A stretch of 5,682 nucleotides of DNA from Chloroflexota bacterium. Lineage in GTDB: Bacteria > Chloroflexota > Limnocylindria > Limnocylindrales > CSP1-4. The notes under the pieces were generated by a model that was given only the letters and a program-made list of their open reading frames with translations, was not told the origin of the DNA and searched no databases. Below, one piece after another: positions 1,121 through 5,522 of the stretch. The DNA is taken from NCBI GenBank assembly GCA_021785115.1, contig JAJYGO010000055.1, positions 1-5,682 of the forward strand, written 5' to 3'. Numbering within the stretch: position 1 is the stretch's first letter; each line of letters starts with the position of its first letter. A program made the position numbers and the translations under genes.

Positions 1121-2011
1121 TCATCGATCCTCGAACTCCGCGAGGTCGAGCTCGGAGAGGCGCTCGGGGTCGGCGAGGACGTCAATCTCGATGATCTTGC
1201 CGCCCGCCACCGTGAAGCCGAGCACCGAAGCTGGTCGCCCGCCCGGGGCCGCGACAATCCCCGCCGTTCCGTTCACGAGCACCGGTCGCGCGAACGGGCC
1301 GAGTCGCTGGGCGAACGCGACTGCCTGTTCGGCCACCGCCGATGCGCCGCGAATGACCCGGGAGGCGCCGGGAGGGACTGCGCCGGCATCGGCTCGGAGC
1401 ACGACGTCGGGGTCGAGCGCGGCGAGCAGCGCGTCGAAGTCGCCGCCGCGCGCGGCCGCGAGGAAGGCGTCGACGACCTCCCGCTGTCTGGGGAGATCAG
1501 CGTCGGGAACCGGCGCCGCCCCCTTGACGCGGCGTCGGGCCCGGCTCGCGAGCTGCCGGGCCGCCGCCGGAGAGCGCCCCACGATGCGGGCGATCTCGCC
1601 GAAGGGCACATCGAACATGTCGTGCAGCACGAAGGCGAGGCGCTCGGGGGGACCGAGCGTTTGCAGGACCACGAGCAGGGCGAGCCCCACCGAGTCGGCA
1701 AGGAGCGCTTCCTCCTCGGGGCCCAAGCCGTCCGCCCGGCTGACGATGGGATCGGGTAGGTGTGCCTCCAGGGGCTCCTCCCGCCGCGACCTGCGCGAGG
1801 CCAGCATGTTGAGGCACACGCGCGCCACCACCGTCGTGAGCCACCCGCCCAAGTTCTCGATGCCACTCGCGTCCTGACGAGTCAGCCGGAGCCAGGCCTC
1901 CTGGACGGCATCGTCCGCCTCGGCGAGCGAGCCGAGCATCCTGTAGGCGACGGCCCGCAGCCGAACCCGGTGCTGCTCGAAGCGCTCCGCCAGCCAGTCG
2001 TCCTGGTCCAT
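1121..2011 (-). CDS. ECF sigma factor, ECF41/SigJ type, with fused SnoaL-like regulatory domain
   Basis: This 296-residue protein directs RNA polymerase to a small set of promoters. Region 2 spans about residues 9-77 (RMLGSLAEADDAVQEAWLRL, then NLGGWLTTVVARVCLNML). Region 4 spans about 108-163 (ERLAFVLHDMFDVPFGEIA and the helix-turn-helix SPAAARQLASRARRRV). A SnoaL/NTF2-like domain follows from about 174 to the end. ECF41 proteins have no separate anti-sigma factor; this fused domain controls activity. The linker reads HLPDPIV where ECF41 usually has WLPEP, the C-terminal DGGGR motif is reduced to DAGA (208-211), and ADPERL near the end corresponds to NPDKL. The start is the ATG preceded by GAGGGG nine bases upstream. 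The gene diverges from a carboxymuconolactone decarboxylase gene, the classic ECF41 partner, and both face matching promoter-like elements. A weak CTCG/CGAG hairpin at 1090-1104 lies after the stop, without a T run. Confidence 0.95.
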   Translation of the reverse strand: MDQDDWLAERFEQHRVRLRAVAYRMLGSLAEADDAVQEAWLRLTRQDASGIENLGGWLTTVVARVCLNMLASRRSRREEPLEAHLPDPIVSRADGLGPEEEALLADSVGLALLVVLQTLGPPERLAFVLHDMFDVPFGEIARIVGRSPAAARQLASRARRRVKGAAPVPDADLPRQREVVDAFLAAARGGDFDALLAALDPDVVLRADAGAVPPGASRVIRGASAVAEQAVAFAQRLGPFARPVLVNGTAGIVAAPGGRPASVLGFTVAGGKIIEIDVLADPERLSELDLAEFEDR

Positions 2012-2013
2012 CG

Positions 2014-2040
2014 GTCACATCCCCTCGGCACGCCCGGTCA
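2014..2040 (+). promoter_or_regulatory. Putative ECF41-dependent promoter for the decarboxylase operon
   Basis: GTCACATC (2014-2021) and CCGGTCA (2034-2040) are 12 bp apart. Measured as ECF41 elements, this is GGTCACA at 2013-2019, a 16-bp spacer and GGTC at 2036-2039. As I recall it, the published ECF41 motif is TGTCACA with CGTC at -10. Transcription would begin near 2046, leaving about 40 bases of leader before the ATG at 2087. The -35 element lies just upstream of the divergent sigma gene and overlaps its ribosome binding region. Confidence 0.6.
2021..2026 (-). promoter_or_regulatory. Ribosome binding site of the sigma gene
   Basis: The minus strand reads GAGGGG here, nine bases before the ATG at 2011. 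It supports that start, and it overlaps the edge of the plus-strand -35 element. Confidence 0.55.
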
Positions 2041-2046
2041 TCGCAG

Positions 2047-2073
2047 TGACCGGGGAAACCGGCCCGATGTGAC
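2047..2073 (-). promoter_or_regulatory. Putative ECF41-dependent autoregulatory promoter for the sigma gene
   Basis: Read on the minus strand this is GTCACATC (2073-2066), 12 bp, then CCGGTCA (2053-2047), the same elements and spacing as the promoter on the other strand. With the preceding base it reads CGTCACA-N16-GGTC. Transcription would begin near 2041 and run into the sigma gene at 2011. Its -35 element sits inside the leader of the decarboxylase gene, a few bases before that gene's ribosome binding site. Autoregulation is inferred from the match between the two copies. Confidence 0.6.
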
Positions 2074-2074
2074 G

Positions 2075-2080
2075 AGGAGG
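2075..2080 (+). promoter_or_regulatory. Ribosome binding site of the decarboxylase gene
   Basis: A perfect AGGAGG lies six bases before the ATG at 2087. It decides the start: the open frame extends upstream to 1760, but that extension runs antisense through the sigma gene and is not real. Confidence 0.85.
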
Positions 2081-2658: not shown

Positions 2659-3135
2659 ATGAGCCTCCTCGTCCGCAACCTCCTGTTCACCGTCGTCGTG
2701 CCCGGGCTGGGGGGAGCCGGGGTCCCTTGGTGGATTCTGACGCGCTCTGGCGGCACGGCCGCTCCGAGGGCATGGCCCGCCGTCGCCGTCATCGCGAGCG
2801 GCGTGGCCCTGTACGTCTGGTGCATCCGGCTCTTCGCTGCGGTCGGGCGAGGCACGCCCGGACCGTGGGACGCTCCTCGGCGCTTCGTCGCCGTCGGCCC
2901 CTACCGGTGGGTGCGCAATCCCATCTACGTCGCCGCTCTGCTTGTCGTCGCTGGCGAGGCGTGGTTGTTCCTCTCGCTGCCGCTCCTCGCCTACGCGGGG
3001 GCGATGGCCCTCTTCTTCCACCTGTTCGTGATCGGCTACGAGGAGCGGGCGCTGCATCGCCGCTTCGGAGACGCCTACGTGGAGTACCGCCGGACGGTTC
3101 CGCGCTGGATCCCGCGCCCGCAACGAGGCGGGTAG
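2659..3135 (+). CDS. Membrane methyltransferase, isoprenylcysteine O-methyltransferase (ICMT)-like
   Basis: This 158-residue integral membrane protein probably transfers a methyl group from S-adenosylmethionine. Hydrophobic segments lie at about 3-27, 39-62 and 89-125. The family signature is clear: GPYRWVRNPIYVA (80-92), the cofactor-binding region of ICMT-type enzymes, then E100, YEERALHRRFGDAYVEY (127-143) and the ending VPRWIPR. The start MSLLVRNLLFT is typical of bacterial members, and AGGGAGG lies 11 bases upstream. A longer start at 2638 would overlap the previous stop by one base (TGATG) but adds only seven unconvincing residues. It follows the decarboxylase closely and probably shares its promoter. 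Bacterial members act on varied small or lipid substrates; the substrate here cannot be read from sequence. The end of the gene, stop codon included, is duplicated just downstream. Confidence 0.87.
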   Translation: MSLLVRNLLFTVVVPGLGGAGVPWWILTRSGGTAAPRAWPAVAVIASGVALYVWCIRLFAAVGRGTPGPWDAPRRFVAVGPYRWVRNPIYVAALLVVAGEAWLFLSLPLLAYAGAMALFFHLFVIGYEERALHRRFGDAYVEYRRTVPRWIPRPQRGG

Positions 3136-4912: not shown

Positions 4913-5308
4913 CTACGGACGCACTTCGACGAATCCCGCTGCGGCGAAGTCGCCATCGAAGGCCAGGGCCTCCCGCAAGCGAAGCCGGCGCATCAGCGCG
5001 AAGCTCGTGGCATCGACGAACGAGTAGCGTCGCTCGTCGTGGCGTCGGAGCCAGCGCCACGCGTCCTCCTCGACCTCATCCCCGATGTGGCGGATCGCGA
5101 GGCCTGGCACTCGGGTGACCGCGTCGAGGAACTCGACCGCCCGGCGGTGCCCTGCCCGCCGCGCGAGGAAGGTCCAGGTCTCGCCCACGACCAGCGTCGT
5201 GGTGAGCAGTGAGCCGGGCCCCGCCTCCCAGATGGCCCGGGCATCGGGGTGGCGGGCGTCACGGCGGAACCGCAAGCCGACCCAGAAGGACGTGTCGACG
5301 AACCTCAT
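4913..5308 (-). CDS. vapC: PIN-domain ribonuclease toxin, VapC family
   Basis: This 131-residue protein is the toxin of a type II toxin-antitoxin pair. VapC toxins are Mg2+-dependent ribonucleases, often cutting tRNA or rRNA. The acidic PIN residues are in place: D5 in FVDTSFW, E43 in [10 protein letters not shown]99 in [11 protein letters not shown] and D118 or D120 in [12 protein letters not shown]. The size and the ending FVEVRP are typical of a complete, probably active VapC. The ATG lies four bases after the antitoxin stop, so translation is probably coupled to it. The aldo/keto reductase starts 158 bp downstream and appears unrelated. Confidence 0.93.
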
Positions 5309-5312
5309 GAAC

Positions 5313-5522
5313 TCATGACCCGTACACGACCCGATCGATGTCTCCGGCCTCCTCGTCGATGTCCCCGACCAGTGCCGCCATGGGATCGCGATCCTGCGCT
5401 GGGCCCAGGCGCTCGCGCACGAGCTCGCGGATCAGCGCTGCCCTGGACATGTGCCGCCGCGCGGCCTCCGTCGCCAGGGCCTCGTCGAGCGCCTCGTCGA
5501 TGCTGATCTGGAGTCTCCGCAT
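5313..5522 (-). CDS. vapB: Ribbon-helix-helix antitoxin, VapB family
   Basis: This 69-residue protein is the antitoxin partner of the PIN toxin that follows it. The N-terminus is a ribbon-helix-helix DNA-binding domain: beta strand RLQISID (3-9), helix 1 around EALDEALATEAARR, and helix 2 around SRAALIRELVRERL. The acidic tail DPMAALVGDIDEEAGDIDRVVYG is typical of VapB tails that wrap the toxin active site. Such antitoxins repress their own operon, alone and with the toxin. The ATG at 5522 has no Shine-Dalgarno sequence, and a candidate -10 element ends nine bases upstream, so the message may be leaderless. Confidence 0.92.
   Translation of the reverse strand: MRRLQISIDEALDEALATEAARRHMSRAALIRELVRERLGPAQDRDPMAALVGDIDEEAGDIDRVVYGS

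Follow-up and report, generated by a model that had tools for sequence, protein, structure and literature searches.

A mirror-symmetric pair of ECF41-type promoters, probably bidirectional, between a sigma factor gene and a carboxymuconolactone decarboxylase gene in a Chloroflexota bacterium

Can one sigma factor serve its own gene and that of its target from two promoters laid over each other? The question is raised by a 60-bp element between two divergent genes of a Chloroflexota bacterium, in the window of 5,682 nucleotides that is the whole stretch of DNA analysed here. A first-pass annotation had read the element as two ECF41-type promoters that face each other and form a self-amplifying switch of a single sigma factor.

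The mirror element and its genes

The two genes lie where the annotation had placed them. An ECF41/SigJ-type sigma factor of 296 aa is encoded at 1121–2011 on the minus strand and a carboxymuconolactone decarboxylase (CMD)/AhpD-like protein of 183 aa with a CPWC motif (PF02627, E 1.5e-10) at 2087–2638 on the plus strand, with 75 bp between them. The sigma protein scores 280 bits against NF007214 SigJ (cut-off 271), and its sigma2 and sigma4 regions, the promoter-binding core, are matched by PF04542 and PF08281. They are followed by a C-terminal extension of 135 residues, possibly SnoaL-like, whose match to PF12680 (E 6e-4) is below the gathering score. Among solved structures the top match is SigJ (5xe7, E 6e-50), aligned to residues 9–288. 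At the position of the WLPEP linker motif the protein has HLPDP; of the 121 sigma rows aligned, 10 have WLPEP itself, and forms ending in PDP or PEP predominate. The COE gene next to the sigma gene is the CMD gene with CPWC, which is taken here as the target gene. After a 20-bp gap it is followed by a gene for a PEMT-family methyltransferase (2659–3135, plus strand; PF04191, E 1.1e-8), possibly the second gene of a target operon. The Pfam matches of the window genes scanned include no anti-sigma domain.

Elsewhere in the window, the minus strand encodes a phosphoesterase/phospholipase C-like protein (1–852; PF04185) with an RR-type signal-like N-terminus and a PIN-domain protein (4913–5308; PF01850). 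The latter gene is preceded by a 69-aa gene at about 5313–5522 (minus strand), whose product is ribbon-helix-helix antitoxin-like by eye, and together they resemble a VapBC-type pair.

The motif GTCACATC-N12-CCGGTCA is present as a single exact copy on each strand of the window, at 2014–2040 (plus) and 2047–2073 (minus). The centre of symmetry is at 2043.5, between 2043 and 2044, and the exact pattern search agrees with the annotation on this point. There are no further copies in the window when up to three mismatches are allowed. At this tolerance shuffled windows have a mean of 0.26 matches, and two or more in 4 of 200 shuffles. The number of exact copies expected by chance is 9e-6 for the window's composition, and of 3000 order-1 chains as long as the window none had a relaxed mirror pattern.

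The ECF41 promoter has been defined as TGTCACA-N16-CGTC, with COE genes as targets by reporter (Wecke 2012, PMC3426412). Both copies resemble it, as the annotation had proposed, each with 9 of 11 consensus positions and the exact 16-bp spacer. In the target arm, the −35 element GGTCACA (2013–2019, plus strand) lies between the Shine-Dalgarno sequence and the start codon of the sigma gene, and the −10 element is GGTC (2036–2039, plus strand). In the sigma arm, the −35 element CGTCACA (2068–2074, minus strand) abuts the Shine-Dalgarno sequence of the CMD gene, and the −10 element is again GGTC (2048–2051, minus strand). The probable Shine-Dalgarno sequences, recognised by their letters, are GAGGGG (2021–2026, minus strand) for the sigma gene and GAGGAGG (2074–2080, plus strand) for the CMD gene. 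The annotation was also correct in that each −35 element lies within the leader of the opposite gene and that the two polymerase footprints overlap, as follows from the element spacing. Together the −10 elements make the inner palindrome GGTCA-N6-TGACC, seen at 2036–2051 as annotated and predicted to be a common melted region. They are nonetheless two separate −10 elements, not one common symmetric −10.

The start sites were predicted by analogy with the ECF41 promoter of S. meliloti, printed as TGTCACA-N16-CGTC-N8-G (PMC6180224, Table 1). We take the last base printed there, nine bases past CGTC, as the start, because another row of the table closes with the lower-case letter used for a start that two methods had located. 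Transcription would then begin at G2048 on the plus strand and at a G at 2039 on the minus strand, 9 bp apart; the positions 2046 and 2041 given by the annotation are probably 2 bp off. With N8 between the cores, GAC at +1 to +3 of each predicted transcript is the complement of the −10 core GTC of the other arm. An RNA hairpin of the two arms was rejected as a candidate, since with these starts neither transcript would contain both.

Recurrence of the geometry in relatives and other phyla

Relatives were taken as the best 80 genome loci by sigma sequence. Within 250 bp, the sigma-side ECF41 motif is present in 75 of these, a motif on the opposite strand in 30 and both in 27, and the opposite-strand motif is at −8 from the sigma start, the offset of the window, in 23 of the 30. 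A regular expression for the whole mirror, which allowed spans of 57–68 bp, matched 32 loci of this set including the window, with spans of 62 bp (18 loci), 63 bp (7), 64 bp (2) and 65 bp (5).

A scan blind to the sigma gene used the pattern GTCAC-N18-GTC-N7..9-GAC-N18-GTGAC in the phyla of three centre genomes (L001, L065 and L047) that had been picked for carrying the mirror. Genomes with the pattern number 16 among 396 from Actinomycetota, 3 among 140 from Myxococcota and 13 among 121 from Chloroflexota, and the reversed control pattern is in none of the genomes scanned in these phyla. At 14 of 16 Actinomycetota loci (three further sites have no locus) and at 11 of 13 Chloroflexota loci, the mirror is no more than 15 bp from the start of an ECF41 sigma gene; the other two Chloroflexota loci are 85–97 bp off. 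For the four Myxococcota loci this is so in two; one is a second copy 1.75 kb off (Sorangium) and one is unrelated. Three of the six plasmid sigma loci read, all in Rhizobiaceae (L124–L126, the first from Rhizobium leguminosarum), and a Bacillota MAG (L076) carry the mirror as well. The layout is found in five phyla, one of them via this single MAG.

Divergent neighbours are predicted at 44 of 53 sites. Counting the window, 15 of the 45 partners match NAD_binding_10, 11 match CMD and the remainder are mixed; thus, the partner varies under a constant geometry. That the sigma/CMD pair itself is kept in relatives with about 85% sigma identity is suggested, though not shown, by three sigma/CMD protein pairs whose longest contigs are equal in size (7927, 37409 and 2307 bases). 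The annotation had called for the paired motif in related genomes. It does recur beside ECF41 sigma genes in several phyla, but some divergent pairs lack one arm: on plasmids of Streptomyces (L127–L129), divergent CMD, SDR or NAD(P)H-binding genes have the target arm only. Having no recognisable sigma arm, these loci have possibly lost autoregulation.

Some loci stand apart. Ahead of the sigma gene of Streptomyces rimosus (L070), the 60-bp element forms an inverted repeat without a mismatch, with 27-bp arms, spacers included; its nearest neighbour is predicted to be co-directional, which suggests palindrome correction or another constraint. Sorangium cellulosum So0157-2 has near-identical mirror promoters (L107, 4568634–4568693, and L110, 4570387–4570446) on either side of a 436-aa gene, with a CMD gene on the far side of L107 and the sigma gene on that of L110; this looks like a gene insertion that came with duplication of the promoter. 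At L103 the sigma relative is in three tblastn pieces, from a frameshift or a sequencing error, and the mirror promoter is intact.

The mirror does not belong to ECF41 promoters in general, since it is absent from a control set of other ECF41 lineages (12 relatives of the window's CMD gene, L111–L122, and the S. meliloti gene). Though an ECF41 promoter is upstream of the CMD gene in 13 of 13 of these loci, the mirror −35 is found in 0 of 13. GAC follows at gap 8 in 0/13, at gap 9 in 3/13 and at gap 12 in 1/13; GA, counted by eye, is at gap 8 in 2/13 and at gap 9 in 8/13. By tblastn, an ECF41 sigma gene is present at 12 of the 13 loci, the exception being L117 in the sequence stretch searched. 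Best matches have 35–40% identity in the 11 relatives measured, and the gene is downstream in the same direction in nine of these 11, with L121 ambiguous. At L119 the pair is divergent, and its two promoters are separate, at a distance of 467 bp. CMD genes of the window's type thus mostly share a co-directional operon with a sigma gene whose product is a distant ECF41 member. In the window, a CMD gene of this operon type seems to be paired with a sigma factor of the divergent type, as in a re-pairing of modules.

How far the mirror goes with divergent transcription is less clear. Neighbour genes were called by a codon-usage score and are predictions, not annotation; six-frame clustering and third-position GC were too noisy for this purpose. 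Among the best 80 loci, the mirror −35 is present in 28/41 with a near divergent neighbour and in 8/39 without (Fisher 2e-5; one neighbour-less locus left out). On a tree in which the mirror −35 counted as present when GTGAC stood within the final 14 bases ahead of the start (39 of 81 rows), 1.7 independent pairs agree and 1.0 oppose out of seven. The association was therefore dropped as proof, its signal being lost after correction for kinship. Gain and loss are frequent, with 15 changes of the mirror −35 on one tree and 18 of the whole mirror on another.

Thirteen divergent loci are scored as being without the mirror −35. Three of these (L013, L020 and L046), which had been anchored on another motif, do have an opposite-strand motif at −8. 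In five of the others the neighbour was scanned: four are non-COE (L010 ketoacyl synthase, L014 Crp-like, L026 RibD-like, L044 fucosidase-like) and one, in Amycolatopsis (L059), is a CMD gene; L067, of the same genus, also has a divergent gene and no mirror −35. The annotation had tied its reading to the symmetry being kept with the gene pair in close relatives; pairs that have lost it are found in more distant ones (L059 and plasmid L127–L129). The inner mirrored −10 is kept in 21 of 31 loci of the best 80 that have neither a mirror −35 nor a divergent neighbour, and in 8 of 13 genus-level groups, a persistence for which divergent transcription by itself does not account. Part of it may be the GA near +1/+2 that is common to other ECF41 promoters, which leaves the C at +3 unexplained.

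Residue 68 and the first −10 base

If one sigma factor serves both arms, they should share its specificity. The first −10 base falls in the same class in the two arms of nearly all mirrored rows (C in both arms in 34, another base in both in 25, a mismatch in 1). These 60 rows are 58 distinct elements, with L047 and L133 being one locus and L136 and L138 having identical elements. When every column of the sigma alignment was screened against the −10 class, residue 68 ranked first. For the sigma-side or operon promoter, D68 goes with C in 71 of 72 rows and N68 with another base in 44 of 45; one further row has S, and the total fit is 115 of 118. For the target arm, D68 goes with C in 33/33 and N68 with G or T in 26/26, that is in 59/59 D/N rows, with one S row. 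On the 121-row tree, the sigma-side or operon promoter gives nine independent pairs, of which eight agree and none opposes (p 0.008); in the target arm 4/4 pairs agree (p 0.125), too few for significance.

The residue-68 match is post hoc, and its sole separate test is in the 12 distant ECF41 loci of the control set, which are counted among the 118 rows but were absent from the screen; the rule holds in 12/12. The window fits it too, with N68 (codon AAC, 1808–1810, minus strand) and GGTC in both arms. Position 88 of sigma-J is an arginine, and N92 of sigma-H touches the −11 base pair (PMC6411747). In the SigJ alignment this arginine is R64 of the window sigma, so residue 68 should correspond to N92 of sigma-H if R64 corresponds to N88 without a gap between. 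ECF residue/base pairing is reported to follow a code (Todor 2020). In the claim that a single sigma factor splits between two promoters as a switch, the two ECF41-type promoters of a single sigma factor are well supported by the consensus match, the geometry in several phyla and the residue-68 match in both arms, and the word switch goes beyond the evidence.

Competing readings and a proposed mechanism

We consider it likely that the 60-bp element is a bidirectional promoter of one ECF41-type sigma factor, with mutually exclusive directions and autoregulation at a fixed sigma:target ratio. A serious contender, though we do not hold it to be probable, is that these are two ECF41 promoters of the ordinary kind, independent in function, whose overlap comes solely from the shortness of the intergenic region, with low activity, no exclusion effect, simple positive autoregulation and co-expression. 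The 75-bp distance would agree with this, as would the separate promoters of the divergent pair L119 in another ECF41 lineage and the treatment of paired promoters in Wecke 2012, which in the part available gives them no special geometry. In addition, the basal activity of five sigma70 bidirectional promoters was too low for competition, with strong activation one way able to repress the other (Warman 2026, PMC12825309). Against independence, the span is 62–65 bp in 32/32 loci though 57–68 bp was allowed, and it is kept where the intergenic region is predicted to be 150–200 bp (L019, L032, L043, L047). Compactness alone therefore does not force the geometry.

It is unlikely that only one arm, target or sigma, is active and the other a relic, with the inner GAC kept since its GA is the first transcribed bases. 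The GA at gap 8 or 9 in CMD promoters of other lineages, the frequent coming and going of mirror elements on both trees and the target arm standing alone at L127–L129 would be expected under such a history. Yet the window's arms score alike, and the −10 class of the target arm tracks residue 68. The same tracking in both arms speaks against the palindrome as an operator of a dimeric regulator, which we rejected as the main explanation and regard as very improbable. The near-perfect inverted repeat at conserved letters, the inner half kept where both the mirror −35 and a divergent neighbour are missing and the perfectly palindromic arms of S. rimosus L070 do look like an operator. But the arms fit the experimentally defined ECF41 promoter including its 16-bp spacer, and GAC at gap 8 is absent from the 13 control promoters. 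Between −35 and −10 the arms are barely alike: 5.35 of 16 positions agree, against 4.79 of 16 between loci (permutation p 0.0014, L070 included), and the mean is about 5.1 of 16 without L070.

The element is real and recurrent, and probably a functional bidirectional ECF41 promoter. We suggest that in this organism RNA polymerase with the sigma factor would bind it in either of two mirror orientations, the left one leading into the sigma gene from the predicted start 2039 and the right one into the CMD operon from 2048. From the phasing of the arms, in which +1 to +3 GAC complements the other −10 GTC, we propose that both orientations melt the same 8–10 bp, so that they could not be occupied jointly. 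Active sigma factor would amplify itself and its target, the relative arm strength would fix the ratio, and self-amplification would have a built-in ceiling. With a common melted region, occupancy would be Ks*s/(1+(Ks+Kt)s) on the sigma side and Kt*s/(1+(Ks+Kt)s) on the target side; thus, the ratio would be Ks/Kt at every sigma level, with each side below 1. This is algebra, not measurement. The self-amplifying switch of the annotation does not follow from it: under simple exclusion one would expect the split to be constant and output to have a ceiling, with no bistability, and the sigma70 cases compete only at high activity.

Nor is the idea of autoregulation new to ECF41 biology. In 55 divergent ECF41/COE pairs the motif precedes 36 ECF41 and 41 COE genes, often both (Wecke 2012, Table 4, PMC3426412), so that autoregulation in such pairs is an existing inference. 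These pairs share with the window the C-terminally extended sigma factor, the CMD/AhpD partner with CxxC and TGTCACA-N16-CGTC-type promoters before both genes; in the part of the paper available there is no description of the mirror geometry, a −35 between Shine-Dalgarno and start codon, overlapping starts or exclusion, and an overlap of the paired promoters was not found there. Overlapping divergent ECF41 promoters did not appear in the titles and displayed abstracts of our literature search, which covered few subscription papers. What is new here is the fixed geometry of the interlocked pair; the pairing of ECF41 promoters is already in print. Besides this locked geometry, the analysis contributes a test of specificity in both arms.

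Three further known systems are close. The sigma70 bidirectional promoters are pseudo-symmetric, with starts about 10 bp apart (9 bp predicted in the window) and one polymerase orientation at a time, but they use sigma70 and a common symmetric −10, whereas the window has an ECF sigma factor that is itself one product, two −10 and two −35 elements. Because of its two separate −10 elements, the window element would work like such a promoter rather than be one. Constrained bidirectional transcription is less noisy, and start distances of 10 bp are among the common ones (Warman 2026, PMC12825309). In Pseudomonas syringae an ECF sigma gene, hrpL, is divergent from its target hrpJ, and RNA polymerase-HrpL at the hrpJ promoter curbs hrpL transcription; there, however, hrpL has a sigma54-dependent promoter unlike that of its target, and autogenous control is negative, whereas both arms of the window are ECF-type (PMC5263251). 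RpoE9/SMb20029 of S. meliloti has an ECF41 sigma factor, a CMD target and a TGTCACA-N16-CGTC promoter with a mapped start, but it is a co-directional operon with a single promoter and no mirror arm (PMC6180224).

The ECF41 sigma factors form a widespread group for which no anti-sigma factor is obvious. Competition of such a sigma factor with its own target at the promoter would be a simple brake on its self-amplification. It is plausible, though we place it just short of probable, that this is a general type of geometry-locked ECF bidirectional promoter, where autoregulation is capped and the ratio constant at all induction levels, whichever the target enzyme. Residue 68 offers a single-residue handle on the specificity of both arms. 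If our reading is true, bidirectional promoters extend from sigma70 to ECF sigma factors.
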